From NCBI GenBank assembly GCA_021325635.1, contig JAJPGV010000016.1, positions 62,001 through 126,000 on the forward strand: a DNA stretch of 64,000 nt, in the 5' to 3' direction. The translations under genes and the position numbers were made by a program. Source of the DNA: Chloroflexota bacterium (lineage in GTDB: Bacteria > Chloroflexota > JAJPGV01). Shown piece after piece: positions 14,824-41,206 of the stretch. Below the pieces are notes generated by a model. The model made no database searches. It saw only the letters and a list, made by a program, of their open reading frames with translations, and was not told the origin of the DNA. Position 1 is the stretch's first letter. Each line of letters begins with the position of its first letter.

Positions 14824-16440
14824 ATGTACTACCGCGACCTTCGTGAGTTCCTCTCAGTCCTGGAGCAGCGCGGCAAGGTCTACCGCTTCAAGGAGCCGGT
14901 CGACAAGGACAGCGAGATCGGCCCGCTCCTGCGGGTTCAGCTGCGCGGGCTTCCCGCCGCCGACCGCAAGGTGCTGGTCTTCGAGAACGTTCGCAACGCA
15001 GCCGGTGGCAGCTACGACATGCAGGTTGTGGCCGGCATCTATGGGGCGTCGGAGGAGATCGTGGCGCTGGGCATGGGCTGCGAATCGCCCGAAGAGATCC
15101 TGGAGAAGTGGCACCAGGCGCTGGAGCACCAGATAGCTCCCACGATGGTGGACGGCGGACCAGTGCATGAAGAGGTCCACGTGGGCGACGAGCTGGAGAC
15201 GTGCGGCCTGGATGCGATCCCGGCCATCGTGGAAGAAGTCGGCTACAGCCAGGTCATTCGCACCGGCGTCCCGATGATCACCCGCGACCCCGAGACCGGC
15301 ATTACGAACGTAGGCACCTACAACGGCTTCTTTCGCGACCGCAGCCGCATCTGCGCGGGCATCGGTCCGGGCCAGGATGCCATGAAGTACCACTGGCAAA
15401 CCGCCCGGCGTCGCGGCGAAGAGCTGCCGGTCGCTATCGTCGTGGGCGCCACGCCCAACCTGATCCTGGTCGGGTCAGCCGACATGCCCTACGGCGTAGA
15501 TGAGCTGTCGGTTGCCGGCGGTATCGCCGGGGAGCCGCTGCAGATGGTCCGCTGCAAGACGGTTCCGCTGGAGGTCCCGGCCACCGCCGAGCTGGTCATC
15601 GAGGGCTTCCTGTCCACCGAGCTGTTGGAGCCACGGCTCGCTTTCGGGGAATATCCCGGCCTCATGCAGGCGGAGAACAACACCCGGCCGGTGATGCGCG
15701 TGACAGCCATCACCCATCGCCGGAAGGCGCTGTTTACGCCGGTGCTGGTTGGGTTCCCACCAAGTGACTCCAATACGATCTCGTCCTCCTGCAATGCCGG
15801 ACTGCTGTATCACCAGCTGCGCTATGAATGCCGGCTGCCTGTCGACAGCATCTACTTTCCCGATCCCAGCCCGGCCACCTTCGGCATCATTCGTTTGCAG
15901 AAGGGAGCGACTCGCAACGTTTGGCAGGTGCTGTACGCCACCGCTGCGCTGACCGACTCCAGCAAGTACCTCGTGGCCATCGACTACGACGTGGACCCGC
16001 GGGAGCTCGATTTGCTGGTCTGGGCGCTCACCTGGCGGGTGCGGCCGGAGAGTGACGTAGTCGTCATGAAGGGACGCCACCCAGGACTGGACCCTTCGTT
16101 CGGCGCCACCGGATCGTCGCGCGGGCGCATGGACCAGAGCGGCCTCCGGGACTACTATCGAGTGCTGATCGACGCCACCATGAGCGGGCCGTATCCGCCG
16201 GTGGCCCTTCCCAAGAAGGAGTACATGGAGCACGCGATCGACCTTTGGAAGCGAGAGCCGGGCCTGCCCGAGCCCAAGCTCAAGGAGCCCTGGCACGGCT
16301 ATTCCCTCGGCTACTGGAGCGATGAAGACCAGCGCCTGGCTGACCTGCTGGCAGCCGGGGACTACCGCGCCGTTGGACGCGTCGCGGAGCAGCTGCAGCG
16401 CGCCGTCGAACAGGTCCGGGCGGCAGGGTCGCCCGAGTAG
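14824..16440 (+). CDS. UbiD-family protein, 540-residue subgroup with altered active site
   Basis: 538 residues from ATG 14824 (GGAAAGAG upstream); the frame is open to 14704 but conservation begins at MYYRDLREFL. Overall UbiD architecture is retained (KDSEIGPLLRVQL, ITRDPETGITNVGTYN, VPATAELVIEG, FTPVLVGFPPSDSN). Three active-site positions differ from Fdc1. The catalytic Arg (R173) is N167. The E277-type position in the EGPFGE loop is replaced by EPRLAFGE, keeping only the last Glu (E276). The metal-binding Glu in the G-x-P-x-E motif is Q240, a change found in no other copy here. It may be non-decarboxylating or a binding or scaffold paralogue (inference). It begins the 15-kb plus-strand operon. 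Confidence 0.9.
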   Translation: MYYRDLREFLSVLEQRGKVYRFKEPVDKDSEIGPLLRVQLRGLPAADRKVLVFENVRNAAGGSYDMQVVAGIYGASEEIVALGMGCESPEEILEKWHQALEHQIAPTMVDGGPVHEEVHVGDELETCGLDAIPAIVEEVGYSQVIRTGVPMITRDPETGITNVGTYNGFFRDRSRICAGIGPGQDAMKYHWQTARRRGEELPVAIVVGATPNLILVGSADMPYGVDELSVAGGIAGEPLQMVRCKTVPLEVPATAELVIEGFLSTELLEPRLAFGEYPGLMQAENNTRPVMRVTAITHRRKALFTPVLVGFPPSDSNTISSSCNAGLLYHQLRYECRLPVDSIYFPDPSPATFGIIRLQKGATRNVWQVLYATAALTDSSKYLVAIDYDVDPRELDLLVWALTWRVRPESDVVVMKGRHPGLDPSFGATGSSRGRMDQSGLRDYYRVLIDATMSGPYPPVALPKKEYMEHAIDLWKREPGLPEPKLKEPWHGYSLGYWSDEDQRLADLLAAGDYRAVGRVAEQLQRAVEQVRAAGSPE

Positions 16441-16532
16441 CTGACCGCCTCCGAGTTTGATGCAGTCCAACGGAGGATTCGAGGTCAAGTGTGGTACTCT
16501 AGCCGCCTAGTTCGAGCAAACGGGGAGCGACC

Positions 16533-17729
16533 ATGTCATCGTCGGGAGCAATGAACAGGCGGTCCTTCTTGAGCGCCCTCTCGCTGACCTGCGCGGCCGT
16601 GCTGTGCGGCTGCGGCGCGAGCCCTGCCCCGCCGTCAACAGCGAATGCCTCGGCTGGCGCGAGCGCGGCGGGCAGTGCCCAGGCGCAGGGCAGCGGGAGC
16701 GCCTGGCAGCAAATGGTGGACGCCGCCAAACGGGAAGGCACGGTCAACCTCTATGGTGGTAACGCCCGCGATAACCAGGCCATGATCCCACTGTTCGAAA
16801 AGGCGTTTCCCAGCATCAAGGTGGCAGGTACATTCGCGCCCGGCGGCGACCTCGTGACCAGGATCGTCGCCGAGCGTACCGCGGGCAAGTACCTGGCGGA
16901 CGTGCTGATCGGGCCCGGCGCGAGCGCGATCGTTCCGCTCAAGCCGATCGGTGGACTCCGGCCGATGGCCGACCTGCTCATCGGGCCCGACATGGTCGAT
17001 CCGTCCAAGTGGTTCGACGGCCACCTGTGGTGGCTCGACGCCAAGGAGCCCTACACCACGCTCGCCTATCAGGGAACCGTCCAGGAATCGGTCTACTACA
17101 ACACCAAGATGGTCGATCCCAAGCAGTTCACTTCCTATAAAGAGCTCCTGGATCCGAAGTGGAACGGCAAGATCGTGGCCACCGACGTGCGCAAGCCGGG
17201 AGCCGGAGCCGTGCCAACCCGCTTCATGTACAAGCATCCCGACCTGGGCCCGGACTTCTTACGCAACCTGTTTGGCAGCACCAACATCACCTTGAGCAGC
17301 AATCAGGGCCAGATGATCGACTGGGTGGCGCAGGGCCGCTACCTGTTGGGCATGTTCCCCAACCCACCCGAAGTGCTCCACGCAGCGGAGCAGGGCTTGC
17401 CGGTAGCCATGATGCCCGGAGACCAGTTCAAAGAAGGTGCGCCCATCGGCCCAGGCGGCGGCGCGGTAAGCCTGGTGGATAAGGGCCCCCATCCAAACGC
17501 GGCCGCCGTTTTCGTCAACTGGCTGCTCTCAAGGGAGGGGCAGACGTTCTGGCAGGAGCAGGTGCAGCAGAATTCGCTCAGGATCGACATCCCCAAAGAA
17601 GGCTTTCCTACGTCGAATATTCCCAAACCGGGCGTCAAGTACGTCAATGCCGCCACGGAAGATTACGCCCAGCTGTCCGGGACCGTGATCACCGACCTGG
17701 TGACCAACGCGATCGATAAGAAACAGTAA
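16533..17729 (+). CDS. ABC transporter solute-binding lipoprotein, first of a triplet
   Basis: 398 residues, GGGGAG before the ATG. A Tat-like signal (NRRSFL, 8-13) and lipobox VLCGC (Cys27) are followed by a short Ser/Ala/Gly linker. The mature domain starts QMVDAAKREGTVNLYGGNA. It carries VYYNTKMVDPKQF, LLDPKWNGKIVATDVRKPG and MYKHPDLGPDFLRNLFG, and closes with YVNAATEDYAQLSGTVI. The same sentence-like order recurs in the next two genes and at 34587. It sits 92 bp after a UbiD stop, in the same operon, so its ligand may be the acid handled by the UbiD enzymes (inference). Confidence 0.93.
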   Translation: MSSSGAMNRRSFLSALSLTCAAVLCGCGASPAPPSTANASAGASAAGSAQAQGSGSAWQQMVDAAKREGTVNLYGGNARDNQAMIPLFEKAFPSIKVAGTFAPGGDLVTRIVAERTAGKYLADVLIGPGASAIVPLKPIGGLRPMADLLIGPDMVDPSKWFDGHLWWLDAKEPYTTLAYQGTVQESVYYNTKMVDPKQFTSYKELLDPKWNGKIVATDVRKPGAGAVPTRFMYKHPDLGPDFLRNLFGSTNITLSSNQGQMIDWVAQGRYLLGMFPNPPEVLHAAEQGLPVAMMPGDQFKEGAPIGPGGGAVSLVDKGPHPNAAAVFVNWLLSREGQTFWQEQVQQNSLRIDIPKEGFPTSNIPKPGVKYVNAATEDYAQLSGTVITDLVTNAIDKKQ

Positions 17730-17779
17730 GGCCGGTCCAACATCCACGACCTGAGCTTCGACAGCAGAGGAGACGAGCA

Positions 17780-19039
17780 GTGAACACCCAAGAACCAGCG
17801 CCTGCCTTACCGCGCTTGACCCGACGCCAGCTTCTGGGATCCTTGGCTCTTGCCGGCTCGGCCGCCATCTTAGCTGCGTGCGGAAGCGCTGCCCCGGCAG
17901 CGCCAAGCGGCAGCCAGCAGGCAGCCTCGCCCAGCACTGGGCAGGCGCCCGCCTCTGCCAAGCCGAGCGTCGGCGGCGCGGCTCCTGCATCAGCGGCAGC
18001 CAGCGCAGGCGGGGATTGGGCGCAGGTCCTGGATGCCGCCAAGAAGGAGGGCGTCGTGAACCTGTACGGCGGCCTCGGCCAGGATAACCGCGATGCTATG
18101 ACGGGCCCCTTCGAAAAGGCCTTCCCTGGCATCAAGATCAACGGTACGTGGGGTCCCGGCGCCTCGCTGGTCAGCCGTGTGTCCGCCGAGCGCCAGGCCG
18201 ACAAGTACCTGGCCGACGTCCTGATTGGACCGGGCGCCAGCGGCATCTTTCCCCTGAAGCCAATAGGCGCGCTGCTGCCGCTCGACCCGGCGCTGCTGCT
18301 GCCCGAGGTGACGGACACCTCGTTGTGGCTGGGCCATCATCTGTGGTACGTCGACTCCACCCAGCCCAACACCACACTGGGCTTCGTGGCCAACGTCCAG
18401 TCGCTTATCACCTACAACACCAAGCTGATAGAGCCCACCCAGTTCAAATCCCACTGGGATCTCCTGGATCCTAAATGGAAGGGCAAGATCGCGGCCACCG
18501 ACGTGCGCAAGCCTGGTGCCGGCGCCGTCGGGACCCGGTTCATCTACAAACACCCCGACCTGGGTCCGCAGTTCCTGGAGCGGCTGTTCGGCGAGATGAA
18601 CCTCGCCCTCAGCAATGACACCCGGCAAATGGTCGACTGGGTGGTCCAGGGCCGCTACCCCATCTCCATCTTCCAGAATCCACCCGACGTGATGGACGCG
18701 ATGGCCCAGAACCTGCCCATCGCCATGCTGCCGGGAGACGCGCTCAAAGAAGGAGCGCCCGTTGGCCCGGGTGGTGGCACGGTGAACCTGATGGAGCGCG
18801 GCCCCAATCCCAACGCCGGGAAGGTGTTCGTCAACTGGCTGCTCTCAAAGGACGGCCAGATCTCATGGCAGCAGCACGTCCGCGACAACTCCGCCCGGAC
18901 CGATATTCCGAAGGACGGAGTGCCGACGCTGTTCTTACCAAAGGCTGGCGTTGATTATGTCAATGGCGCGACTGAAGATTACGCCAAGCTCTCCGGTACC
19001 GTCATCAAGGACGTCCTGGATAAGGCGCTTGCCAAATAG
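17780..19039 (+). CDS. ABC transporter solute-binding lipoprotein, second of a triplet
   Basis: 419 residues from GTG 17780 behind AGAGGAGA. The twin-arginine segment LTRRQLLGS (13-21) and lipobox ILAAC (Cys34) lead into the longest linker of the triplet, about 45 residues of Ser/Ala/Pro. The domain matches the previous protein (VLDAAKKEGVVNLYGGLGQ, GKIAATDVRKPGAGAVGT, YKHPDLGPQFLERLFGEMN). It differs near the ligand-side loop: LWYVDSTQPNTTLGF here, LWWLDAKEPYTTLAY in its neighbours. The stop TAG abuts the next ATG directly, so translation is almost certainly coupled. Confidence 0.93.
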   Translation: MNTQEPAPALPRLTRRQLLGSLALAGSAAILAACGSAAPAAPSGSQQAASPSTGQAPASAKPSVGGAAPASAAASAGGDWAQVLDAAKKEGVVNLYGGLGQDNRDAMTGPFEKAFPGIKINGTWGPGASLVSRVSAERQADKYLADVLIGPGASGIFPLKPIGALLPLDPALLLPEVTDTSLWLGHHLWYVDSTQPNTTLGFVANVQSLITYNTKLIEPTQFKSHWDLLDPKWKGKIAATDVRKPGAGAVGTRFIYKHPDLGPQFLERLFGEMNLALSNDTRQMVDWVVQGRYPISIFQNPPDVMDAMAQNLPIAMLPGDALKEGAPVGPGGGTVNLMERGPNPNAGKVFVNWLLSKDGQISWQQHVRDNSARTDIPKDGVPTLFLPKAGVDYVNGATEDYAKLSGTVIKDVLDKALAK

Positions 19040-20236
19040 ATGACCGGACACCTCGATCGCCGACGATTCCTGCTGCTGGCCGCGGGCAGCGTCTCCGCCC
19101 TTCTGGCCGCCTGTGGTTCTCCGAGCGCCAACTCCCTGCCCGCCGCCTCATCTGCAAGCGCCGGCCGAACGACCTCGACCGGCGCCTCACCGCAACAGGC
19201 CGCCGGCTGGGATCAAATCGTGGCCGAGGCCAAGCGCGAGGGAACGGTCAACGTGTACGGCGCCGGTTCACAGAACAAGGAGGCGCTGGCCGACCCCTTC
19301 GAGAGGGCATACCCCGGCATTAAGGTCAATCTCACGCTGGCTCCCCCGGCCGACGTCCTGTCACGCATTACCAGCGAGCGAACGGCGGAGAAGTACATCG
19401 GCGACGTGCTAACCAGCCTCGGCGCCAGCGCCATCGTGCCGCTCAAGCCCATTGGCGCCCTGGTTCCGCTCGAGCAGGCCTTGATCCTGCCCGAGGTCAC
19501 CGACCTGAGCGTGTGGTTGAACAGGAAGCTGTGGTGGTTGGACGAGGCCGAGCCGCACACTACGCTGGCCTACGTGGGCGACGTGAACGCCCCGGCCATG
19601 TACAACACCAAGCTGATCGATCCCAAGCAATTCACGTCCTACCTCGACCTGCTCGATCCCAAGTGGAAGGGCAAGATGTCCGCGACCGACGTGCGCCGCC
19701 CAGGCGGAGGAGCAGTCATCACCCGCTTCTGGTACACGCAGCCCGGGCTCGGTCCGCAATTCATGGAGCGGCTCTTCCGAGACATGAGCCTGACGCTGAG
19801 CTCCGACCCACGCCAGATGATCGATTGGGTTGCCCAGGGTCGCTATCCCATCGGACTGATGCCCAACTACGCGGACGTGTTCCCGGCCGTGCAGCAGGGC
19901 TTGCCACTGGGGCTGCTGTCCTCGGAATCATTCAAAGAGGGTGTGCCGATCGGGCCAAGCGGCGGGACGGTCAGCTTGCTGGACAAGGGACCGCATCCCA
20001 ACGCCGCCAGAGTCTTCCTGAACTGGCTGCTGTCGAAAGACGGCCAGCTCTCATGGCAGAAGAACAAGGGGGACAACTCGCTGAGAACCGATATCTCCAA
20101 GGAAGGCGTGCCGCCATCCTACCTGCCGGATCCCAAGAGCACATACGTCAACGCCGGGACGGAAGGGTACGCCAAGCTGTCCAGCACCGTCATCCCGGAC
20201 GTTGTCAACAAGGCGCTGCAGGAGGCCAAGCCATAA
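19040..20236 (+). CDS. ABC transporter solute-binding lipoprotein, third of a triplet
   Basis: 398 residues. The ATG begins at the base after the previous stop (0-bp gap). The signal is compact: DRRRFLLLAAGSVSALLAAC (6-25), with the lipidated Cys at 25 and a twin-arginine-like RRRF. The linker is about 30 residues. The mature domain keeps IVAEAKREGTVNVYGAGSQ, LLDPKWKGKMSATDVRRPG and HPNAARVFLNWLLSKDGQ. It lacks the YKHPDLGP block of the two upstream paralogues (WYTQPGLGPQFMERLF instead). The GGAGG near its 3' end (about 20221) serves as the ribosome site of the following cupin gene, whose start overlaps this stop. Confidence 0.93.
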   Translation: MTGHLDRRRFLLLAAGSVSALLAACGSPSANSLPAASSASAGRTTSTGASPQQAAGWDQIVAEAKREGTVNVYGAGSQNKEALADPFERAYPGIKVNLTLAPPADVLSRITSERTAEKYIGDVLTSLGASAIVPLKPIGALVPLEQALILPEVTDLSVWLNRKLWWLDEAEPHTTLAYVGDVNAPAMYNTKLIDPKQFTSYLDLLDPKWKGKMSATDVRRPGGGAVITRFWYTQPGLGPQFMERLFRDMSLTLSSDPRQMIDWVAQGRYPIGLMPNYADVFPAVQQGLPLGLLSSESFKEGVPIGPSGGTVSLLDKGPHPNAARVFLNWLLSKDGQLSWQKNKGDNSLRTDISKEGVPPSYLPDPKSTYVNAGTEGYAKLSSTVIPDVVNKALQEAKP

Positions 20237-21381: not shown

Positions 21382-21415
21382 TCGCCCAACGCGAAGCAAC
21401 TGGAGTGAAGCAGCC

Positions 21416-22339
21416 ATGAAGCCTATTCGCGGCATGTTCCTGCCGCTGCCCACGGTGTTCAAGCACGACGGCAGTCCCGATGAGGCCGTTATGCGGGACA
21501 TGGTGAATCACTACGTGGATGCCGGCGTGGACGCCCTGTTCGTGACCGGCTCGTTCGGCCAGGGCCCGGCCATGAATGCCGACGAGCGCCGACGCGTGGC
21601 GGAGGTCGTGCTGGAGGAGAACCGCCACCGTGTGCCGGCCATCGTTCACATCGGCACAGCCGACCCCTACTCGACCATCGAGCTCGGGCGCCACGCGCTC
21701 GAGCACGGCGCGGAGGGCGTCGGCATCGTGGGGCCGTACTATTACTCCGATCACAGCCAGGCCGAAATCAAGGACTATTTCCGGCTCATCGGCCGAGAGC
21801 TGACCTGTCCCATCCTTGTCTATAACAACGCCGGCTACTCCGGCTATCCGATCGGGCCTGAGCTGATGAAGCAGCTGGTCGCCGATTCACCCCAGATCTT
21901 CGGCTCGAAGGTGGCGGACTCGAATCTCGACGCGGCGCTGCAGTACCACTATCTGCTCGGCCCCGAGTTCGGCCTGTACATCGGCGCCAGCACCCTAGTC
22001 CCTGGCGTGCTGGCCGGACTCTCCGGAACGATCAGCCCGCCACTGTCGCTGTGCCCCAAGCTCGGCGTCGAGACGGTCAAAGCCGCCGAGCAGGGAAACC
22101 TGGACCGGGCACTGCGCCTGCAGCTGGAGGTCGTGGAGTTCCATGCCCGGATCACCGGCTTCTGGCGGCGGTTTGGCTATGGGCTGTTCAGCGCCGCGCT
22201 GCGCGAGGTTGGCTTCGCCGTGCAGAAGTACCCACGCTGGCCAACGCCGGAGGTCGATGAGCAGAGCATCGAGCTGCTGCGGGCCTGCCTACGAAGGGCG
22301 CAGCAGGCCCTGAGCACCGGCGAGCCGCAGCTCGTTTGA
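21416..22339 (+). CDS. DapA/NAL-family class I aldolase (dihydrodipicolinate synthase-like)
   Basis: 307 residues, TIM-barrel Schiff-base aldolase or lyase family acting on pyruvate-type keto acids. GGAGTGAAG precedes the ATG. Landmarks: FVTGSFGQGPAMNADERRRV (about 42-61) at the position of the usual GTTGE motif, catalytic-type Tyr136 in LVYNNAGYSG, and Schiff-base Lys165 in IFGSKVADSN. Members in catabolic clusters include trans-o-hydroxybenzylidenepyruvate hydratase-aldolase and 4-hydroxy-2-oxo-acid lyases, so a role in processing a ring-cleavage product is plausible; lysine biosynthesis is unlikely from context. The end overlaps the next UbiD gene at TGATG. Confidence 0.9.
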   Translation: MKPIRGMFLPLPTVFKHDGSPDEAVMRDMVNHYVDAGVDALFVTGSFGQGPAMNADERRRVAEVVLEENRHRVPAIVHIGTADPYSTIELGRHALEHGAEGVGIVGPYYYSDHSQAEIKDYFRLIGRELTCPILVYNNAGYSGYPIGPELMKQLVADSPQIFGSKVADSNLDAALQYHYLLGPEFGLYIGASTLVPGVLAGLSGTISPPLSLCPKLGVETVKAAEQGNLDRALRLQLEVVEFHARITGFWRRFGYGLFSAALREVGFAVQKYPRWPTPEVDEQSIELLRACLRRAQQALSTGEPQLV

Positions 22340-23958
22340 TGCCCGAACAGAGGTATCCTCGGGATCTTCGACAGCTGCTCGACCTTCTCGACAGTCACGG
22401 CAAGCTGTATCGCTTCACCGAAGCCATCGACAAAGACAGCGAGCTGGTGCCGCTGCTGCGGGTGCAGCTGCGCGGGCTGCACGGTCCGGAGCGCAAGGTC
22501 CTGCTGTTCGAGGACGTGCGCGGGGCGAACGGCCAGCGCTTCGACATGCGGGTGGCCGCGGGGGTGTACGGCCTGTCGGAAGAGATTTTCGCGCTCGGGA
22601 TGAACTGCGCTACGCCGCAGGACATGCTGGAGCGCTGGCACCAGGCCCTCGAGGCGCCCATTGCGCCGGTGGTCGTAGACGGCGGTCCCGTGCAGGAGGA
22701 GGTGCACACCGGCGACGATCTTCTGAGTCGGGGGCTGGACGAGATTCCGGCGCCCTGCGAAGAGGTTGGTTTCAGCCAGATGATCCGCACCGGCGTGCCG
22801 ATGATCACGCGCGATCCGGAGACAGGGATCTCCAATGTCGGGACCTATAACGGCTTCTTCCACGATCGCGCCCGTATGGTCGCCGGCATCTACCCACCGC
22901 AAGACGCCATGCGCTACCACTGGCAGACCGCTCGGCGCCGGGGCGAGGACCTGCCGGTGGCCATCGTGGTGGGTGCCATGCCCAATCTGATCGCCGTCGG
23001 CTCGGCGCGCATCCCCTATGGCCTCGAAGAGCTGGCGGTGGCCGGGGGCATCGCCGGCGAGCCCCTGGAGATGGTGCGCTGCAAGACCGTGCCGCTCGAA
23101 GTGCCCGCGCGCGCCGAGCTGGTGATCGAGGGCATGCTGTCCACAACGACCATGGAGCCCAAGCTGGCCTTTGGCGAGTATCCCGGCTACATGCACATGG
23201 AGCGCAGCAACTCGCCGGTGCTGCGCGTGACTGCCATCACCCATCGCCAGGACGCGATCTTCACCCCGGTGCTGGTAGGCTTCCCGCCCAGTGACAGCAA
23301 CACCATTGCCTCGTTCGTCGCGGCCGCGATGCTCTATCACAACCTGCGACACGCCTGCCGGCTGCCCGTCGAAGAGGTCTTCATCTCCGACATGACGGGC
23401 GGACCATTCTGCGTGATCCGGCTCGAGCGCGGCGCCACCCGAAACGTGTGGCAGGTGCTGCAGGCGGCCGCAGGCCTGTCCGCGACAACCAAGTGGATCA
23501 TCGCCGTCGATTACGACGTCAACCCCCGCGACCCCGACCTGCTCATCTGGGCGCTCACCTGGCGGGTGCGACCCGAAAGCGACGTCGTGGTCATGCGCGG
23601 CCGGCAGGTCGGGCTGGATCCGTCGTTCGGGGCGACCGGGTCATCCCACGGGAAGATGGAGCCAGGCTTGCCGAGCGAGTATTTCCGGGTGATGGTGGAC
23701 GCGACCATGTCCGGCGCCTATCCACCCGTGGCGCTGCCCAAGCGCGAGTATATGGAGCGTGCGCTGGAGCTCTGGAAGCGGCAGCCCGGGCTGCCGGAGC
23801 CGGCGCTTCGCCCACCATGGCACGGCTACACCCTCGGCTATTGGAGCGAGGAGGACCAACGCCTGGCGGACCTCATTGCCGCCGGCGACTACAAGGCCGT
23901 CGGTCGGGCGGCGGCGCAGATGCAGGTGACAACCGAAACGGTACTGAACAAGGAGTAG
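22339..23958 (+). CDS. UbiD-family protein, 540-residue subgroup with altered active site
   Basis: 539 residues. I use ATG 22339, overlapping the aldolase stop by one base; TTG 22336 is the alternative. The sequence begins with FTEAIDKDSELVPLLRVQL near residue 26. The catalytic Arg position is N171 (NVGTYN), and the second Glu motif reads MEPKLAFGE with Lys275 at the Fdc1-E277 position and Glu280 at the E282 position. The metal-site Glu244 (GEPLEM) is intact, unlike the 14824 paralogue. C-terminal GYWSEEDQRLADLIAAGDYKAVG is a tail typical of this subgroup. An M24 gene follows after six bases. Confidence 0.92.
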   Translation: MPEQRYPRDLRQLLDLLDSHGKLYRFTEAIDKDSELVPLLRVQLRGLHGPERKVLLFEDVRGANGQRFDMRVAAGVYGLSEEIFALGMNCATPQDMLERWHQALEAPIAPVVVDGGPVQEEVHTGDDLLSRGLDEIPAPCEEVGFSQMIRTGVPMITRDPETGISNVGTYNGFFHDRARMVAGIYPPQDAMRYHWQTARRRGEDLPVAIVVGAMPNLIAVGSARIPYGLEELAVAGGIAGEPLEMVRCKTVPLEVPARAELVIEGMLSTTTMEPKLAFGEYPGYMHMERSNSPVLRVTAITHRQDAIFTPVLVGFPPSDSNTIASFVAAAMLYHNLRHACRLPVEEVFISDMTGGPFCVIRLERGATRNVWQVLQAAAGLSATTKWIIAVDYDVNPRDPDLLIWALTWRVRPESDVVVMRGRQVGLDPSFGATGSSHGKMEPGLPSEYFRVMVDATMSGAYPPVALPKREYMERALELWKRQPGLPEPALRPPWHGYTLGYWSEEDQRLADLIAAGDYKAVGRAAAQMQVTTETVLNKE

Positions 23959-23964
23959 ACCGAG

Positions 23965-25134
23965 ATGAACCAGCAGCCCCAACTCATGGACATCACCTGG
24001 AATGAGGAGCGATTGAAGCGCGACCGGCTGGCCCGTCTACGCGCCGAGATGCGATCGCGGAACGTTGGCGCGCTGCTGTTGACCAGCTGGGTCAGTGGCC
24101 GCTACGCGCTCAACGTGCGTGTGCCCTCCGGCGAAGCCTTCGTTCCGGTGGAGGGCGACCCGATCTACTTCGTGCGGCCCATGGACGCCGGGTACGTCGA
24201 GCTCGCCAACATCAAGACGGACAAGTACATCTACGAGCACAACCCGTCCGATCCCGAAGGCGAGAAGAAGGCCAAGCGCTGGGCCGACAGCGTGGCGGAC
24301 CTTATGGCGCAGTACGGAGTGGCCGAACAGGCGCTGGGCGTCGACACCATGGAGCCGGAGGGCACGCTTGCGCTGGCGAACCGCGGGCTCAAGCTGATGA
24401 ATGCGCGAACCGTCCTGCAGCGGGCGGCGGCTATCAAGACACAGGACGAAGTGCTCATCTACTGGGAGATGGGTAAGCTCTACGACCGCATCATGAGCAA
24501 GTTTCGCGACGACATCGCCCCCGGGATCAGCGAGCGTGAGATGATCAGCCGAGTGTACTCGAACGTAGTGAGCATGGGCGGTGAGGGCCTGCTGCAGATT
24601 AACGTCTGCGCCGGCGAGGACACCTGGCCATGGAGGCGCTGGCCAACCAACAAGCGTTTCGAGGACGGGGACCTCGTGGGCATGGATCTGCATGTCTATG
24701 GCCCGGGAGGCTACATCTACGACTCGTCGCGGACGTACCTCTGCGGCAGCAAAGCAAACGCCAAGCAGAAGGAGCTGTACCGCATTGCCCACGACTACAA
24801 CAACGCCTGCATCGAGCTCCTGAAGCCAGGCATGGCGATTCCCGAATGGGTCGAGCGGCTTCCGCAGGTCTCGGACAAGCACCGCGAGGCGGCCTACACC
24901 TTCCACATCATCCATTCGACCGGCCTCACCCCCGGCGAGTACCCGAACGTGGTCAAGCAGCGCAAGCCGGTGGAGGACACGTTCAAGGAAAACCAGGTGC
25001 TGGTGCTGGACTGCTACTTCGGCGAGGAGGGATACGACCAGGCGGTGAAGCTCGAAGAGCAGGTCGTCATCACCAAGACCGGCGCGGTCAAGATGGCCAA
25101 CATGCCGTACGACGAGCGCCTGCTGGCTGCATGA
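23965..25134 (+). CDS. M24-family metalloenzyme with one substituted metal ligand
   Basis: 389 residues; AAGGAG overlaps the UbiD stop just before the ATG. The creatinase-type N-domain precedes a catalytic domain with D241 and D253 (GMDLHVYG, YDSSRTY), H317 or H314 (FHIIHSTG) and E364/E365 (KLEE). The fourth ligand, Glu in the paralogues (IECYFGE, VECYFGE), is Asp349 here (LDCYFGE). The block NVCAGEDTWPWRRWPT is also altered from the NMNPWRRW seen in the other two. These changes suggest a different substrate or metal. It lies between two UbiD genes and overlaps the downstream one by four bases (ATGA), pointing to stoichiometric expression with them. Confidence 0.9.
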   Translation: MNQQPQLMDITWNEERLKRDRLARLRAEMRSRNVGALLLTSWVSGRYALNVRVPSGEAFVPVEGDPIYFVRPMDAGYVELANIKTDKYIYEHNPSDPEGEKKAKRWADSVADLMAQYGVAEQALGVDTMEPEGTLALANRGLKLMNARTVLQRAAAIKTQDEVLIYWEMGKLYDRIMSKFRDDIAPGISEREMISRVYSNVVSMGGEGLLQINVCAGEDTWPWRRWPTNKRFEDGDLVGMDLHVYGPGGYIYDSSRTYLCGSKANAKQKELYRIAHDYNNACIELLKPGMAIPEWVERLPQVSDKHREAAYTFHIIHSTGLTPGEYPNVVKQRKPVEDTFKENQVLVLDCYFGEEGYDQAVKLEEQVVITKTGAVKMANMPYDERLLAA

Positions 25135-26777
25135 GCACGGTTCAAGAAGCGCCGGCCGCCCGCAGCTCGACCGCGTACTACGCCGACCTCCGCGCCTTCA
25201 TCGCCGAGCTGGAGCGGCGCGGCAAGCTCTATCGCTTCACGGACCCCATCAATAAGGATTCCGAGCTGGTGCCGCTGCTGCGGGTGCAGCTGCGCGGCGT
25301 GGCCGAGGCAGAGCGCCGCGTGCTGCTGTTCGACGACGTTCGCGGCGCCTCCGGGAGCCGCTTCGACATGCGGGTCGCCGCCGGCGTCTACGGCCTGTCC
25401 GAGGAGATCCTGCACCTGGGCATCAGGTGCGGCTCGCCAGCCGAAGCGCTCGAGAAGTGGCACGAAGCGCTGGAGCACCCGATCGATCCGGTGATCGTGG
25501 ACTCGGGACCGGTCCACGAGGAAGTGCACACCGGCGACGACCTGTTGAGCATGGGCCTGGATGAGATACCGGCGCCGGGCGAGGAAGTTGGCTACAGCCA
25601 GATGATCCGCACGGGCACGCCGATGATCACTCGCGACCCGGAGACCGGCATCCGCAACGTGGGCGCCTACAACGCCTTCTTCCGCGATCGTGACCGTATT
25701 GTGGCCGGCATCGCGCCCGCCAACCATGCGATGATGCATCACTGGCCGGCCGCCAAGCGCCGGGGCGAGGATCTGCCCGTCGCGATCGTGGTCGGCTGCA
25801 CCCCCAACGTCATGCTGGTGGCTTCCACCGGTATTCCCTATGGCATCGACGAGCTGGCCGTCGCCGGCGGCCTCGCCGGGCACCCGCTGGAGCTGGTGCG
25901 CTGCAAGACCGTGCCGCTCGAGGTGCCGGCCAATGCTGAGCTGGTCATCGAGGGCCTGCTGTCCACCAAGCTGCTGGAGCCTCGTCTGGCCTTTGGCGAG
26001 TACCCCGGCCACATGAACGTGGAGCGCAACCAGGTGCCCGTGATGAAGGTGACCGCCATCACCCACCGCAAGGATGCGATCTTCACCCCGGTGCTGGTCG
26101 GGTTCCCGCCGAGCGACTCCAACGTCATCTCGGCCTTCGCTGAAGCCGCCACGGCTTACCACTATCTGCGCTATAAGTGCCGCCTGCCAATCGAGGACAT
26201 CTACTTCCCCGAGCCAAGCCCGGCCACCTTCGGCATCGTCCGGCTGCAGAAGGGCGCCAACCGCAGCGTGTGGCAGGTGCTGCAGGCCTCCGCGGCCCTG
26301 GCGTTCGCCGCGAAGTACCTCGTGGCGGTGGATTACGACATCGACCCGCGCGACCCCGAGATGCTGATCTGGGCGCTCACCTGGCGGGTGCGGCCGGAAA
26401 GCGACATTGTCGTTACCCGCGGCCGCCGGCCGGGGCTGGATCCGTCGTTCGGCCCCACCGGATCCTCCAAGGGACGGATGGACGCCGGCGGGCCCAGCAA
26501 CTACTTCCGAGTGCTCATCGACGCGACCATGAGCGGCGCCTACCCTCCGGTGGCGCTGCCTAAGAAGGAGTACATGGAGCGAGCGCTGGAGATCTGGAAC
26601 CGGCAGCCGGGGCTTCCGACGCCTCATCTGCGCGAGCCGTGGCATGGCTACACGCTGGGCTACTGGAGCGAAGAGGATCAACGGCTCGCCGACCTGATCG
26701 TCAACGGAGACTACAAAGCCGTGGGCCGCGTGGCCGAGCAGATGCAAGTCTCGGCCGACCAGGTGGCCGGGCACTAA
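25131..26777 (+). CDS. UbiD-family protein, 540-residue subgroup with altered active site
   Basis: 548 residues from ATG 25131, overlapping the M24 stop (ATGA). A short extra N-terminal stretch (MSTVQEAPAARSS) precedes YYADLRAFIAELERRGKLYR. The catalytic Arg is N181 (NVGAYN), the Glu loop is LEPRLAFGE (R285, E290), and the metal-type Glu254 sits in GHPLEL. It closely resembles the 22339 protein (KDSELVPLLRVQLRG, FDMRVAAGVYGLSEEI), so the two flank the M24 gene as a diverged duplicate pair. Expected to act in the cytosol with prenylated FMN, if the cofactor is bound at all. Confidence 0.92.
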   Translation: MSTVQEAPAARSSTAYYADLRAFIAELERRGKLYRFTDPINKDSELVPLLRVQLRGVAEAERRVLLFDDVRGASGSRFDMRVAAGVYGLSEEILHLGIRCGSPAEALEKWHEALEHPIDPVIVDSGPVHEEVHTGDDLLSMGLDEIPAPGEEVGYSQMIRTGTPMITRDPETGIRNVGAYNAFFRDRDRIVAGIAPANHAMMHHWPAAKRRGEDLPVAIVVGCTPNVMLVASTGIPYGIDELAVAGGLAGHPLELVRCKTVPLEVPANAELVIEGLLSTKLLEPRLAFGEYPGHMNVERNQVPVMKVTAITHRKDAIFTPVLVGFPPSDSNVISAFAEAATAYHYLRYKCRLPIEDIYFPEPSPATFGIVRLQKGANRSVWQVLQASAALAFAAKYLVAVDYDIDPRDPEMLIWALTWRVRPESDIVVTRGRRPGLDPSFGPTGSSKGRMDAGGPSNYFRVLIDATMSGAYPPVALPKKEYMERALEIWNRQPGLPTPHLREPWHGYTLGYWSEEDQRLADLIVNGDYKAVGRVAEQMQVSADQVAGH

Positions 26778-28571: not shown

Positions 28572-28612
28572 GCAGCCGGCTAGCCCCAGCGAAGGACTGA
28601 GAGGAACGAAAC

Positions 28613-31174: not shown

Positions 31175-31186
31175 CCGCTTTCCGGC

Positions 31187-33736: not shown

Positions 33737-33768
33737 GCGCCGGAGGACCACTCGGCACTGCAGGGGAA

Positions 33769-33800
33769 AAGGGCCGCACAGGCAAACCTGTGCGGCCCTT
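33769..33800 (+). terminator. Strong terminator hairpin
   Basis: AAGGGCCGCACAGG, loop CAAA, CCTGTGCGGCCCTT: 14-bp perfect stem with a 4-base loop, 32 bases after the cupredoxin-like stop. Flanked by AA on the left and TTCC on the right. Confidence 0.8.
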
Positions 33801-33927
33801 CCACTGAATTCGGATGATCCGATGAGCACCCGGTGGCTCAGCTGGAGCGAATGCTGGTTCGGATACGATCAATAGGCGCCACGCTCGTGGCTGAGTCGAT
33901 ATCGGAAAAGGGGAGCGCATTCCATAC

Positions 33928-34467: not shown

Positions 34468-34586
34468 TGTCACGCTGGTTCCGGCGCTGGGGCAGCCCGC
34501 ACCACAAGAGCCTGAAATCTTCTCAGCTCATTTTGGTACAACATGCAGCGAGGCCGGCAGGGCGCCAGGCCACATGGAGGATGACA

Positions 34587-35777: not shown

Positions 35778-35801
35778 GCGTCCCGCGCCGGACGCCTGGG
35801 T

Positions 35802-37238
35802 TCAGCCGCCGAACAGCGCTCCCCACCTGTCGCGCACCTTCTCCTTGAGCTCGGGGCTGGTGCCGACCACCTTGGGGAAGCGGTCACGCCAGTGGAATGG
35901 CCGGGTAGCGTCGATGATCATGCGCGAGTGCGTGTAGTCGCGTGTCTCGCGCTGCTCCGGCGTGAGGCGCGGATCGAGCGGCTGGCTCCAGCAATCCCGC
36001 ACGACGTCGGCCGAGCGCGCCGGGTCGCTGCGGGTCCAGATAGCCCATAGCACCTCGTCTTCATTGTGGACGTCGATGTCTTCATCCACCACCACGACGT
36101 AGCGGCAGAACTGCCCGGCCTGCCGGGTGTGCCCCGCCACCATAGCCGCCTGTTTAGCGTGCCCAGCGTAGCGCTGCTTGATGCTCACCACCAGCACGCC
36201 AAGGCACGAGCCCGGCAGATGCGCTACGGCCTTCACGTCCGGTACGCCGGCGGCCTCCAGGGCGTCGAGAATGACGGCCTGCCGGATGGTGTTCTGGACG
36301 TAGTAGTACTCTCCCGGCGGGCGCATGGGCGACGACCCGAGCACGATAGGCTGGTTGCGATGGTACAGGGCCTCCACTTGGATGTAGGTCTCGTCACGAA
36401 CAGCACTGGCGTAGTAGCCCGTGTATTCCCCAAACGGCCCTTCCGACAGCACCTTCCCGGGCTCCACGTACCCCTCGATGGCAATTTCTGCGTCGGCCGG
36501 GATCGGTAAGCCTGTGACCGGGCCCGAAATGACCTCGACCGGCTCCCCTCGGACGGCGCCCGCCCACTCGTACTCATTCAGCCCGAGCGGCAGCGGCAAC
36601 GAGGCGGCCACGAACAGCTGCGGGTGGGCGCCGAACACAGCCACCACCGGCATGCGCTCGCCACGCTCGTGGTACTTGTCGCGATGCAGACGGCCGTGCT
36701 GTCCGGGAGCAATGTACAGGCCGACCTTGTCGCGATCCTGGATCATCATGCGGTAGGTGCCCACGTTCACCTGGCCGCTGTCCGGGTCGCGGGTCACGAC
36801 CATGCTGGCGGTACCGAGGTAGCGGCCGCCATCCCCTTCGTGCCAGATCGCCGCCGGAAAGCGAGTCAGGTTGATGTCATCTCCATGAGCCACGTTTTCG
36901 AGCACGGGGCCCTCGGTCAGCGTGTGTGCGGGCAGCGGACGCAGCCCTTTGACGCGCCGGCGCCATTCCTGCTCGACCTGGGCGTAAGGTACCCCGAGCG
37001 GCATGTTCAGGACCATCGCCGACCGCTCGAGCGTGGCCAGCGAATTGGTAACCAGTCGCCAGCCGGGCTGGCAATCCTTGATGCGATCGAACAGCAGGCA
37101 CGGCCGTGATTCGGACTGCAGGCAGAACATCTCGGTAAGGGCGCCGATTTCCAGGTTCCAATCGGCGCCCTCGATGATCTTCAGCTGGCCCAGTTCGTCG
37201 ACCTGGCGCAGCCAGTCACGCAGGTCGGGCGAGCTCAT
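35802..37238 (-). CDS. UbiD-family decarboxylase, 480-residue subgroup, intact active site
   Basis: 478 residues. All Fdc1-type catalytic positions can be placed: N158 and R163 in NVGTYR, a His in GQHGRLHRDKY, the metal-type E235 in GEPVEV, and E266/E271 in EGPFGEYTGYY. It should therefore form prenylated-FMN adducts and (de)carboxylate an aromatic or alpha,beta-unsaturated acid. Start ATG overlaps the cupin stop by one base (TGATG), so it is the last member of the 14-kb minus-strand run. Closest in-window relatives are 57078, 63571 and the left-edge gene. Confidence 0.95.
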   Translation of the reverse strand: MSSPDLRDWLRQVDELGQLKIIEGADWNLEIGALTEMFCLQSESRPCLLFDRIKDCQPGWRLVTNSLATLERSAMVLNMPLGVPYAQVEQEWRRRVKGLRPLPAHTLTEGPVLENVAHGDDINLTRFPAAIWHEGDGGRYLGTASMVVTRDPDSGQVNVGTYRMMIQDRDKVGLYIAPGQHGRLHRDKYHERGERMPVVAVFGAHPQLFVAASLPLPLGLNEYEWAGAVRGEPVEVISGPVTGLPIPADAEIAIEGYVEPGKVLSEGPFGEYTGYYASAVRDETYIQVEALYHRNQPIVLGSSPMRPPGEYYYVQNTIRQAVILDALEAAGVPDVKAVAHLPGSCLGVLVVSIKQRYAGHAKQAAMVAGHTRQAGQFCRYVVVVDEDIDVHNEDEVLWAIWTRSDPARSADVVRDCWSQPLDPRLTPEQRETRDYTHSRMIIDATRPFHWRDRFPKVVGTSPELKEKVRDRWGALFGG

Positions 37239-38365
37239 CAGACAGTCGCTGCGGCAGGCAGCTCGGGCATCGAATACTCGACGCCTTCCGCAACCAGATC
37301 GGCACGGAATTGCCGGCGAATCTCCGGGTCCTCGTCTTCGTACTCGATCATGGAGCCACCCTTCTTGATGTCGAGCAGACTGCCCTTGCCGGACTGCATG
37401 TTCCAGAACTGCAGCCCGTAGTTGTGGCTGCCGTAACGGATGGCGAGGTTCCTCGCCGGCTCAGGGCCGGTGTTGAAGTGCTGATGGAACCAGCCGGTCG
37501 CCGGGCTGAAAACGCTGCCGGGGCGCCAGTCCACACGTACCACCTGGTCGCCATGTCCGCTGGCGTAAGGCTGCGTGCCCAGCTCGCGGGGCCACATCAG
37601 CGAGTAGCCCTTGGAACGGACGATCAGCAGGATGGCGCCTCCACCGTGGTAGTGGCCCTTGTGATAGCGGCCCATGGGCCATTCCGTCATGTGGCCAACG
37701 AGGACGTTGCCGGACATCTCGAAGTTCGTGGCGAACAACCCCGACGCCTTGGTTTCCGACTTGTCCAGGTTCGCTCCGGTGACGTCGGGGATGAAATTCG
37801 TCTCCCAGACCGACACTGATCCCCAGCTGGTCGTCTGCCGGCGGCGTTCGCCAACGTCGAAGTACTTGGCCCGTGCGTCGTAGCGGTCGGTGAACTGGTC
37901 CTTGGCGTTGAACACGAAGTCCATGTTGTGGAACACATCCACGATGAGCGGAGCCGTGGTAAAGCCGATATAGCGAACCGGCTCGCTGCCAGAGGTATTG
38001 ATGAGCCGGTGAGAGGTGTTCAGTGGCGGCGCGAAAAGACTTCCGGCCTGCCATTCGAAGAAGATCTTGGACCCCTCGTCGTCACCGTTCCACACTTCGG
38101 TGACGCCGCGGCCCGACAGCACGTAGACGATCTCTTCGTACAGGTGTCGCTCAGGGTGCAGCGCTCCGCCGGCCGGGATCTCGCCGACGTACATGCCGGT
38201 GAGGCCCTCCATGCCCTCCAGCTGGACGTAGGCCCCACGGCCTCCCGTCCGCTCCCAGGGTGCGAGATCGAGCCCCATGACGTCGGTGATGCCGTGCCCG
38301 CGGGTGATCGGCAAACGCTCGTCTTCACGGATCCAGCGTTCGTAGGTCGATTCAAGGTTGCCCAT
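37238..38365 (-). CDS. Double-cupin protein (family A)
   Basis: 375 residues. N-terminal YERWIREDERLPITRGHGI, then GGRGAYVQLEGMEGLTGMYV, first cupin LHPERHLYEEIVYVLSGRG and PPLNTSHRLINTSG, second cupin KGHYHGGGAILLIVRSKGY and TGWFHQHFNTGPEPARNLA. The tail GGSMIEYEDEDPEIRRQF is close to that of the 5900 and 28613 copies. Preceded by an M24 gene (29 bp) and overlapping a UbiD gene. The constant pairing with UbiD and M24 genes argues for a shared pathway step, such as oxidation or isomerisation of the decarboxylation product (inference). Confidence 0.87.
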   Translation of the reverse strand: MGNLESTYERWIREDERLPITRGHGITDVMGLDLAPWERTGGRGAYVQLEGMEGLTGMYVGEIPAGGALHPERHLYEEIVYVLSGRGVTEVWNGDDEGSKIFFEWQAGSLFAPPLNTSHRLINTSGSEPVRYIGFTTAPLIVDVFHNMDFVFNAKDQFTDRYDARAKYFDVGERRRQTTSWGSVSVWETNFIPDVTGANLDKSETKASGLFATNFEMSGNVLVGHMTEWPMGRYHKGHYHGGGAILLIVRSKGYSLMWPRELGTQPYASGHGDQVVRVDWRPGSVFSPATGWFHQHFNTGPEPARNLAIRYGSHNYGLQFWNMQSGKGSLLDIKKGGSMIEYEDEDPEIRRQFRADLVAEGVEYSMPELPAAATV

Positions 38366-38394
38366 TCAGCCTGTCTCCAAACCTCCGTGCTTGC

Positions 38395-39561
38395 CTAGCC
38401 GATGAACCGTTCGTCGAACGGCATGCTCGGAGCCAGGATCTCCGGCTTGGCCCCTTCCTTCACCACGATGTTCTCCTCCAGCTTGACCGCCAGCGGGCTG
38501 TTCTCCTCCCCGAAGTAGCACTCCACGGCCAGAACCGTGTTGGGCTGCAGCACGCCCTCCAGCATCTTCTTGCGCCGGTCCAGCTGCGGGTAGCCGGAGT
38601 AGTGCAGGCCCACGCCGTGGATGATGTTGTAGTTGTACAGGTGCTTCTGATACTTCTCCGGAACCTGGGGCACGGCCTGGTCCACTTCGGCGAAGGTCTT
38701 GCCACCGACCATGACGTCGATGGTCTGCATGAGGTAGTCGTAGGCACGGCGGTACAGGTCACGCTGCTCGCTGGTCGGCCGCTCGCCCACGAAGTAGGTC
38801 CTGGAAGCATCGCCCCGCAGGCCGCAGCCGCCGCGCCCATGCAGGTCGATGCCGACGAACTCATTGTCGTTGACCGCCCGCTGGGTGGGCCAGCGGCGCC
38901 AGGGATTCATATTCTCGCCGGCGCAGACGTTGAGCTGGGCGATGTCCTCGCCGCCGGCCTCGTACCAGGCCATGACCACCGTGGCCGCCAGCTCATTCTC
39001 GCTGACGCCGGGCTTCAACGCGTTCTTGAAAGCGGTCATGGTGTGGGCGTACTGCCGGCCGATGGTCCGGTAGATCTCGACCTCGTCGTCGGTCTTGACG
39101 GCGCGCGCCTGCTCGACTACGGGCAGGGCGTTGCCAATCTTCACGCCCGCGTTCTGCAGCGCGAACACTGAGGCGATGTCGAGCTGATCGACGCCCAGCA
39201 CCTCGCCACTGACGCCATGCTCGGCCATCAGGTCGAGGATGTGCTGGGCGAACTCGTTGACCTTGTTCTCGGAGTTGCGCGACCAGCTATCGGCAGGCGT
39301 GTACTTGGTCAGCCGCGAGTTGGGATACTTGAGCTTCACGTAGCCCAGGTCGCGAGGACGGATCAAGCCCACAGCCGGGCCCTCCACCGGCACGAAGACA
39401 GAGCCGCCCGGAACGTGCTGGTTGATGACGTAACGGGTGTTATGGCCGTCGTGCATGTACAGCGCCCCCAGGCCGCGCTGCTTCATCAGCTCCTGCAGCC
39501 GCGCCAGACGATCGCGAATGAGGCGATCGTTGTCCCAGGTCTCTTCAATCTTGATGGGCAT
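38395..39561 (-). CDS. M24-family metalloenzyme (creatinase/prolidase fold)
   Basis: 388 residues from ATG 39561 with GGAGG six bases upstream; the open frame to 39654 is not used. Ligands D239, D251 (GIDLHGRG, GDASRTY), H315 (NIIHGVG), E347 (VECYFGE) and E362/E363 are all present. It is much closer to the 10884 protein (shared NVCAGENMNPWRRWPTQRA and GIDLHGRG-CGLRGD) than to the 23965 one. It is 22 bp downstream of a UbiD gene and 29 bp upstream of a cupin. Peptidase activity is possible, but context favours hydrolysis of a small C-N bonded compound. Confidence 0.91.
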   Translation of the reverse strand: MPIKIEETWDNDRLIRDRLARLQELMKQRGLGALYMHDGHNTRYVINQHVPGGSVFVPVEGPAVGLIRPRDLGYVKLKYPNSRLTKYTPADSWSRNSENKVNEFAQHILDLMAEHGVSGEVLGVDQLDIASVFALQNAGVKIGNALPVVEQARAVKTDDEVEIYRTIGRQYAHTMTAFKNALKPGVSENELAATVVMAWYEAGGEDIAQLNVCAGENMNPWRRWPTQRAVNDNEFVGIDLHGRGGCGLRGDASRTYFVGERPTSEQRDLYRRAYDYLMQTIDVMVGGKTFAEVDQAVPQVPEKYQKHLYNYNIIHGVGLHYSGYPQLDRRKKMLEGVLQPNTVLAVECYFGEENSPLAVKLEENIVVKEGAKPEILAPSMPFDERFIG

Positions 39562-39583
39562 GCCGAACCTCCTAGTTAATCGT

Positions 39584-41206
39584 TCATTCGGATCGGGACG
39601 CGCTGCCGGCGACGTCCTCAACCTTGACCTGCATCTGCTCCGCCACCTTGCCAACGGCCTTGTAGTCGCCCTGCCTGATCAGGTCTGCCAGCCGCTGGTC
39701 CTCCTGGCTCCAGTAACCCAGCTCGTAGCCGTACCAGGGCGCCCGCAGCTTGGGCTCAGGGAGACCGGGCTGACGCTTCCAGATCTCCAGGGCCCGCTCC
39801 ATGTACTCCTTCTTGGGCAGGGCTACCGGCGGATAGGCGCCGCTCATGGTGGCGTCGATGAACACGCGATAGTAGTCGCGCAGACCGCTCTGGTCCATGC
39901 GCCCACGGGAAGAGCCGGTGGAACCGAACGATGGATCGAGTCCCGGATGCCGGCCCTTCATGACGACGATGTCGCTTTCGGGCCGCACGCGCCAGGTCAG
40001 CGCCCACACCAGCATCTCGAGGTCACGGGGGTTGATGTCGTAATCGACCGCGATGACGTACTTCACGCTGGGTGAGTAGCCGGCGGTCGCGTGCAGGACC
40101 TGCCACACGTTCCTGGAGCTGCCCTTGGCCAGCCGAATCACTCTGAAGGCGCCACCGGTCATCTCGGAGACGTACACCTCCTCGACCGGCAGCCGGCATT
40201 CGTAACGGAGGTGATGGTACATAAGCCCGGCGTTGGCCGACGACGATATCAGGTTGGAGTCGCTCGGCGGGAAGCCGACCAGCACTGGCGTGAACAGCGC
40301 CTTGTGCCGGTGGGTGATGGCCGTGACGCGCATGATCGGCCGCATATTGTTCTCGGCCTGCATGAAGCCGGGATATTCGCCGAAGACCATTCGCGGTTCG
40401 AGGGTCTTGGTCGAGAGATAGCCTTCAATCACCAGCTCGGCGTGGGCCGGCACCTCCAGCGGCACGGTCTTGCAGCGCACCATCTCCATCGGCTCGCCGG
40501 CCATCCCTCCAGCGACGCTCAGCTCGTCCACCTCGTACGGCATGTCGGCCGAGCCGACCAGGATCAGGTTCGGCGTGGCGCCAACGACGATCGCCACCGG
40601 CAGGTCTTCGCCACGCCGTCGAGCCGTCTCCCAGTGAAAGCGCATGGCATCCTGCCCGGGACCGATGCCCGCGCAGATGCGGGCGCGATCGCGAAAGAAG
40701 CCGTTGTAGGTGCCCACGTTGGTCAGCCCGGTTTCCGGATCGCGGGTAATCATCGGCACGCCGGTGCGGATGACCTGGCTGTAGCCCACCTCTTCCACGA
40801 TCGCCGGGATCGCATCCAGGCCGCAGCTGTCCAGCTCCTCCCCAATGTGGACCTCCTCGTGGACGGGACCGCTGCTCACGATGATCGGGGGAATAGGCCG
40901 TTCCAGGCCCTGGTGCCAGCGCTCCGGCATCTCCTCCACGCTGTTGCAGCCCATGCCCAGCGCGACGACCTCCTCGGTCAAGCCGTAGATCCCGGCCAGC
41001 ACCGACATGTCGAAACGCTCGCCATTGTGTCCGCGGACGTCCTCGAACAGCAGCACCTTGCGGTCGTCCGGCTGCACTCCTCGGAGCTGCACCCGCAGCA
41101 GCGGACCCAGCTCCGTGTCCTTGTCGACGGGCCCCGAGAAGCGGTGGACCTTGCCTCGCCGTTCGAGCTCCGCCAAGAATTCCCGTAGGTCGCGGTAGTA
41201 GCTCAT
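39584..41206 (-). CDS. UbiD-family protein, 540-residue subgroup with altered active site
   Basis: 540 residues from ATG 41206 (GGATGGAGG upstream); the frame runs back to 41770 inside the HyuB-like gene, but that part is not conserved. Closest to the 14824 protein (YYRDLREFLxxLExRGKV, EEVGYSQVIRTGVPMITRD). Catalytic Arg replaced by N168 (NVGTYN), Glu loop LEPRMVFGE (R272, E277), metal-type E241 (GEPMEM) retained. The conserved C-terminal half includes FTPVLVGFPPSDSN and LDPSFGSTGSSRGRMDQSG. It follows the HyuA/HyuB-like genes by ten bases, so expression is linked. Confidence 0.92.
   Translation of the reverse strand: MSYYRDLREFLAELERRGKVHRFSGPVDKDTELGPLLRVQLRGVQPDDRKVLLFEDVRGHNGERFDMSVLAGIYGLTEEVVALGMGCNSVEEMPERWHQGLERPIPPIIVSSGPVHEEVHIGEELDSCGLDAIPAIVEEVGYSQVIRTGVPMITRDPETGLTNVGTYNGFFRDRARICAGIGPGQDAMRFHWETARRRGEDLPVAIVVGATPNLILVGSADMPYEVDELSVAGGMAGEPMEMVRCKTVPLEVPAHAELVIEGYLSTKTLEPRMVFGEYPGFMQAENNMRPIMRVTAITHRHKALFTPVLVGFPPSDSNLISSSANAGLMYHHLRYECRLPVEEVYVSEMTGGAFRVIRLAKGSSRNVWQVLHATAGYSPSVKYVIAVDYDINPRDLEMLVWALTWRVRPESDIVVMKGRHPGLDPSFGSTGSSRGRMDQSGLRDYYRVFIDATMSGAYPPVALPKKEYMERALEIWKRQPGLPEPKLRAPWYGYELGYWSQEDQRLADLIRQGDYKAVGKVAEQMQVKVEDVAGSASRSE

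Follow-up and report, generated by a model that had tools for sequence, protein, structure and literature searches.

In a 64-kb window of a Chloroflexota genome (positions 62001-126000 of contig C32 of genome G000; "the window" is this whole stretch), four UbiD-family proteins of about 540 residues have an active site that looks rebuilt rather than dead. The Glu-Arg-Glu network of the UbiD family has been described as conserved across the family (PMC8988006; PMC5818171). The four copies have Asn in place of the network arginine (Arg173 in Aspergillus niger Fdc1), and the site looks rebuilt because every UbiD in our sample with Asn or Ser at that position carries an invariant Arg on the neighbouring strand. 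We consider it somewhat more probable than the reverse (about 0.55), judging from alignments and structural models, that these swapped proteins are active prenylated flavin mononucleotide (prFMN) enzymes in which the carboxylate-binding Arg has moved across a hairpin and the pocket has been reshaped. They are a new variant of a known family and not a new kind of system. A search of the open-access literature found no description of either a natural UbiD lineage that lacks Arg173 or an Arg that substitutes for it.

The altered active site and an invariant arginine on the neighbouring strand

Unless an Fdc1 residue is named, positions follow copy 4 (P0004), in which 168, 272 and 277 correspond to Fdc1 Arg173, Glu277 and Glu282, respectively. 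As a first-pass annotation of this DNA had claimed, the alignment has Asn at the Arg173 equivalent in all four long copies (N167, N171, N181 and N168 in copies 1 to 4, N171 being counted from the ATG at 22339), and the R, E, E triad is intact in all four shorter copies of the window, of about 480 residues. The same annotation described the Glu pair as altered, and this stands for the Glu277 equivalent, which is Arg, Lys, Arg and Arg in copies 1 to 4. But the Glu that it regarded as shifted, at position 270, two residues upstream of the altered site, is also present in 63 of 68 long Arg-type proteins. The Glu282 equivalent is retained as Glu in all four copies. It had also treated the long copies as the altered class; all four are indeed altered in the window, but three 540-class paralogues of the host genome (L019, L022 and L025) have the Arg and both Glu intact, as do most 540-class relatives from Chloroflexota, Proteobacteria, Bacillota and others. 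Length as the cause of the altered site was rejected, since most UbiDs of about 540 residues keep Glu-Arg-Glu.

The swap was counted over 146 non-redundant UbiDs from the fetched loci. All 22 proteins with Asn or Ser at the Fdc1-173 position carry Arg at position 147, and none of the 122 Arg173 proteins does, the residue there being Tyr (98), Phe (16), Ala (5) or Thr (3); in the two remaining proteins, which are outliers, both positions are Thr. In a separate alignment, Arg147 was found in 17/17 altered and 0/26 intact long UbiDs, the latter having Tyr, Phe or Ala. Complete separation of the two groups in that alignment was seen at positions 147 and 168 only. Of these two, just 147 is invariant among the swapped proteins, with 168 alternating between Asn and Ser. 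The catalytic Arg had been called lost, which is correct for Arg173 itself but probably incomplete in view of Arg147. A structure with an alternative Arg and Glu in the same space, together with normal decarboxylase activity, had been named as a finding that would count against that annotation; the fixed Arg147 of the neighbouring strand approaches it at the sequence level.

Position 272 is Glu in 120 and Gln in 2 of the 122 Arg173 proteins, and any of nine residues (R, D, G, S, H, E, Q, N or K) in the swapped proteins. This free variation fits the absence of Arg173, since Glu277 is thought to tune Arg173 in Fdc1 (PMC5818171). Arg or Lys at the Glu277 position was considered as a general substitute Arg and rejected, because other swapped proteins have Asp, Asn, Gly, Ser, His, Gln or Glu there. 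In most of the main clade, Arg147 persists despite a one-residue deletion between it and the hairpin turn; a Glu gained at 138-139, a candidate acid partner for Arg147, is also found in most of the main clade and is missing from the second clade.

Several genomes share the pattern, which was seen in 22 non-redundant proteins, and the altered site is therefore far from chance or from sequencing error, the latter as the first-pass annotation had argued. The four long copies differ pairwise at 23-31% of residues with a ratio of nonsynonymous to synonymous substitution rates (dN/dS) of about 0.19-0.29, and thus are maintained under purifying selection.

Fold, cofactor site and characterised relatives

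P0001 and P0004, the two long copies scanned against Pfam, exceed the gathering scores of three UbiD domains (PF01977, PF20695 and PF20696), with 40.5 and 37.8 bits for UbiD_N, 38.8 and 50.4 bits for UbiD_C, and the scores for UbiD (PF01977) given in Table 1. Against TIGR00148, the NCBI model for UbiD family decarboxylases (cut-off 244.85 bits), the swapped window copies fall below the cut-off at 187.4-202.9 bits, and the intact copies P0005 and P0006 score 293.7 and 331.9 bits. Homology to the phenylphosphate carboxylase alpha/beta and VdcC families (NCBIfam) is detectable in all copies, with the swapped copies far below the curated cut-offs (87-113 bits for TIGR02723 and TIGR02724, the alpha and beta models, vs 564.6 and 468.95).

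AlphaFold2 models were obtained for P0004 (Table 1) and for a second-clade copy from contig C22, the latter with a predicted local distance difference test score (pLDDT) of 92.8. In both, a strand at 146-155, with the new Arg at its start, is followed by a strand at 162-173 that holds position 168. From this secondary structure, on which the placement of Arg147 rests, the two strands are predicted to pair, and the Arg147 side chain may face either way. By Foldseek against the PDB, the model matches the UbiD enzymes HmfF, E. coli UbiD, HudA, AroY, VdcC and Fdc1 (top E about 1e-41).

The best match in both sequence and fold is HmfF, the 2,5-furandicarboxylate decarboxylase of Pelotomaculum (PDB 6h6v, 6h6x; phmmer E 3.4e-43; Foldseek E 1.3e-41, target TM 0.87), which has the same domains. 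Its hairpin aligns without gaps to that of the second swapped clade, and places Arg opposite the HmfF Tyr and Asn opposite the HmfF triad Arg (this Tyr and Arg lying at about 130 and 152 in the deposited chain). HmfF has a Glu-Gly-Pro-Phe-Gly-Glu loop, whereas the loop of the swapped proteins differs, and they are about 90 residues longer. Fdc1 (PDB 4za4; Foldseek E 3e-37) also has the fold in common with the swapped proteins, which keep the equivalents of its metal ligands and Glu282; the swapped window copies have Asn for Arg173 and Arg or Lys for Glu277. We take Fdc1 Asn168, His191 and Glu233 to be metal and phosphate ligands of prFMN. The equivalents of the first and last, Asn163 and Glu228, are each invariant in the 22 swapped proteins, and position 186 (Fdc1 His191) is His in 14 and Asp in 3 of 17 altered proteins, Asp being found in three window copies. 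The acid at position 277 is Glu in 16 and Asp in 6 of the 22. Of the features of a prFMN decarboxylase, the window's four thus lack Arg173 and the Glu277 acid and have the Glu282 acid and the cofactor ligands.

The pyrrole-2-carboxylate decarboxylase PA0254/HudA has the UbiD fold and is among the UbiD structures shown with a conserved E(D)-R-E triad (PMC8988006), two of whose three residues are missing from the swapped proteins. HudA Asn318 and HmfF His297 are specificity residues (PMC7976604). Position 318, whose probable correspondence to these residues was traced through HmfF, is occupied by Asn in each of the window's four swapped copies; Asn and Ser predominate there in the altered set, and 61 of 68 long Arg-type proteins have Ser, a pattern that gives a weak hint at a heteroaromatic substrate. 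Long (about 540 residues) Arg-type UbiDs of Chloroflexota, Proteobacteria and others (L034, L046, L049) are 37-42% identical to P0004 and have the same extended C-terminus, but unlike the swapped proteins they keep Arg173 and Glu277 and have Tyr, Phe, Ala or Thr at 147. No characterised long Arg-type UbiD was found in the open-access literature searched.

UbiD inventory and gene neighbourhood

Eight UbiD genes lie within the window, four long and four shorter (Table 1). In the host genome (4.64 Mb in 63 contigs), 35 UbiD genes were counted, along with a single UbiX (233 bits vs a cut-off of 108.9); a 210-kb contig bears at least 14 of the UbiD genes, and a fifth altered copy is found on contig C22 (locus L030/L132).

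Other unusual UbiDs were seen. Three HmfF-like proteins of the host genome (C32:138319, C32:44976 and C41:3019; L028, L070 and L071) have His aligned at the metal-ligand Glu233 position, and Gln-Arg where others have Tyr-Arg. A divergent UbiD (C60:35537-36166 of the host genome, L072; and L055:12045-13616) has His where the metal-ligand Asn168 aligns and Gln in place of Glu277. A second odd, HmfF-like type (L125:6740-8245 and L128:3636-5105) lacks Arg147 and has Thr in place of Arg173 and His in place of Glu277; its L125 member is two genes away from a swapped UbiD. On a first look, genomes G062, G063, G067 and G068 (those of L031, L032, L038 and L053) have 66 to 136 UbiD-like candidates each, numbers that, if confirmed, would amount to a very large expansion of paralogues.

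Seven related solute-binding-protein genes, several of them tandem, are scattered among the UbiD genes of the window (2308-4829, 13368-14630, 16533-20236 and 34380-35777). Other window neighbours include a dienelactone-hydrolase-like gene, Amidohydro_2, a DHDPS-family lyase, a Rieske dioxygenase, hydantoinase A/B and a molybdenum hydroxylase. In other genomes, solute-binding proteins are frequent neighbours of altered copies, and the copies themselves are often duplicated (L123, L126, L127). These solute-binding and catabolic-type neighbours suggest that the altered copies serve the catabolism of an imported compound. Three related cupin proteins of about 370 residues (5870-7069, 28601-29725 and 37238-38365) are also present, the two scanned belonging to no named NCBIfam family, and cupin relatives adjoin swapped UbiDs in L125, L126, L127 and L129.

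Table 1. Coordinates of the UbiD copies, their active-site codons and selected neighbouring genes in the window
Feature	Position	Strand	Remarks
UbiD copy 1 (P0001, 538 aa), altered	14824..16440	+	Pfam UbiD 148.8 bits; N/R/R at 168/147/272 (P0004 numbering)
Copy 1, new invariant Arg (Arg146; P0004 position 147)	15259..15261	+	CGC
Copy 1, Asn167 in place of Fdc1 Arg173	15322..15324	+	AAC
Copy 1, Arg271 in place of Fdc1 Glu277	15634..15636	+	CGG
UbiD copy 2 (P0002, 539 aa from ATG), altered	22339..23958	+	alternative TTG start at 22336
Copy 2, new invariant Arg	22786..22788	+	CGC
Copy 2, Asn in place of Fdc1 Arg173	22849..22851	+	AAC
Copy 2, Lys in place of Fdc1 Glu277	23161..23163	+	AAG
UbiD copy 3 (P0003, 548 aa), altered	25131..26777	+	ATG overlaps stop codon of upstream M24 gene
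Copy 3, new invariant Arg (Arg160)	25608..25610	+	CGC
Copy 3, Asn181 in place of Fdc1 Arg173	25671..25673	+	AAC
Copy 3, Arg285 in place of Fdc1 Glu277	25983..25985	+	CGT
UbiD copy 4 (P0004, 540 aa), altered	39584..41206	-	copy modelled; Pfam UbiD 152.4 bits; AlphaFold2 pLDDT 92.9, predicted TM-score (pTM) 0.90
Copy 4, new invariant Arg (Arg147)	40766..40768	-	CGC
Copy 4, Asn168 in place of Fdc1 Arg173	40703..40705	-	AAC
Copy 4, Arg272 in place of Fdc1 Glu277	40391..40393	-	CGA
Copy 4, retained acid Glu277 (Fdc1 Glu282)	40376..40378	-	acid in 22/22 swapped proteins
Shorter UbiD copies, intact	1-1045, 35802-37238, 46285-47706, 57078-58526		first incomplete, runs off window start
M24-family hydrolase, coupled to copy 3	23965..25134	+	Pfam Peptidase_M24 89.2 bits; sub-cutoff similarity to DddP
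M24-family hydrolase beside copy 4	38395..39576	-	start codon unsettled; sub-cutoff DddP similarity, 132.5 bits; clusters with M24 gene at 10887
Three tandem solute-binding-protein genes between copies 1 and 2	16533..20236	+	16533-17729 Pfam match; all three one cluster

Origins, competing explanations and significance

The swap occurs in Chloroflexota and in a desulfobacterial phylum. Strict-threshold hits, Arg-type relatives included, were found in 11 of 400 sampled Chloroflexota genomes and in 3 of 297 genomes of the phylum holding a Desulfobacterales genome. The best tree, built without the hairpin and loop columns, puts 17 of the altered proteins into one clade (support 98) and four into another that is nested among Arg-type proteins (94), with one further row standing alone. 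This topology needs three changes, and the swap perhaps arose repeatedly; a tree with one origin is 9.4 log units worse and is not rejected by the approximately unbiased (AU) test (p-AU 0.363).

If the swapped proteins are active prFMN enzymes, Arg147 would serve in place of Arg173 as the positive charge that holds the substrate carboxylate and aids cofactor maturation, and its relocation would open the pocket space formerly held by the Arg173-Glu277 pair, so that a differently shaped, possibly heteroaromatic, acid could be admitted. The Glu282 equivalent would donate the proton during decarboxylation, and the nearby solute-binding proteins, M24 hydrolases, Rieske dioxygenase and hydantoinase-like genes would act in the catabolism of the imported compound. 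Fdc1 R173A shows very weak activity and slow prFMN maturation (PMC5818171). Several points weigh against this explanation. In Fdc1, R173K too is inactive (PMC5818171). The new Arg precedes the turn Asp by 9 residues in P0004 and by 10 in the second clade, so that in a regular strand the two would point to opposite faces unless a bulge intervenes, and this spacing is a real weakness. Finally, because one origin is not rejected, one event may account for the association of Arg147 with Asn/Ser173, which could then reflect common descent rather than causation.

The last point leads to a quite unlikely alternative, namely that Arg147 serves structure or phosphate binding and has nothing to do with the loss of Arg173, both changes having been fixed together in the clade ancestor. 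Positions 138, 143, 178, 310 and 506 also partly separate the swapped from the intact groups, as co-fixation would allow, but only 147 and 168 do so completely, 147 alone is invariant, and the best tree has three origins. We consider it unlikely, though with rather more in its favour, that the swapped proteins bind prFMN without decarboxylating, with Arg147 anchoring another group in a different prFMN reaction on a substrate that has no free carboxylate at that place. Both Arg173 and Glu277 variants of Fdc1 are nearly inactive as decarboxylases (PMC5818171), the pocket-side positions 170, 178 and 180 also differ between the groups, and the mix of neighbouring genes is unusual; but the catalytic acid and the metal site are retained, and a conserved replacement Arg is more simply explained by preserved carboxylate binding.

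The first-pass annotation had proposed that the altered copies act with an intact partner, and a role as non-catalytic subunits of an intact UbiD paralogue would have a precedent in multi-subunit carboxylases such as phenylphosphate carboxylase, which has alpha and beta UbiD-type subunits (NCBIfam models). The intact P0005 is 2.3 kb away from copy 4, and L129 has an adjacent intact copy. However, an Arg-type UbiD was found within about 6 kb in only 3 of 11 other neighbourhoods of altered copies, which speaks against the need for an intact partner encoded alongside; pairs often consist of two swapped copies (L123, L126, L127), and an invariant new Arg would be unexpected in a non-catalytic subunit. 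This proposal is therefore very unlikely. Decaying pseudo-enzymes or sequencing artefacts are hardly credible: nothing was found in favour of either, and both are refuted by conservation, given full-length open frames, the low dN/dS and the recurrence of the pattern beyond this genome and phylum.

We thus favour active prFMN enzymes with a relocated Arg. A wider and more tentative proposal, which we would not expect to hold in full, is that a UbiD lineage found in two phyla or more has dispensed with the supposedly essential Arg173-Glu277 pair and carries out prFMN chemistry by means of an Arg of the neighbouring strand, on substrates or in a reaction beyond the known scope of the family, perhaps with repeated origin. 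What the window holds is a natural, selected lineage without two of the three network residues, although Fdc1 mutants without them are almost dead. If active, the swapped lineage would show which parts of the network prFMN maturation and decarboxylation truly require, and it would offer a differently shaped pocket for biocatalysis.

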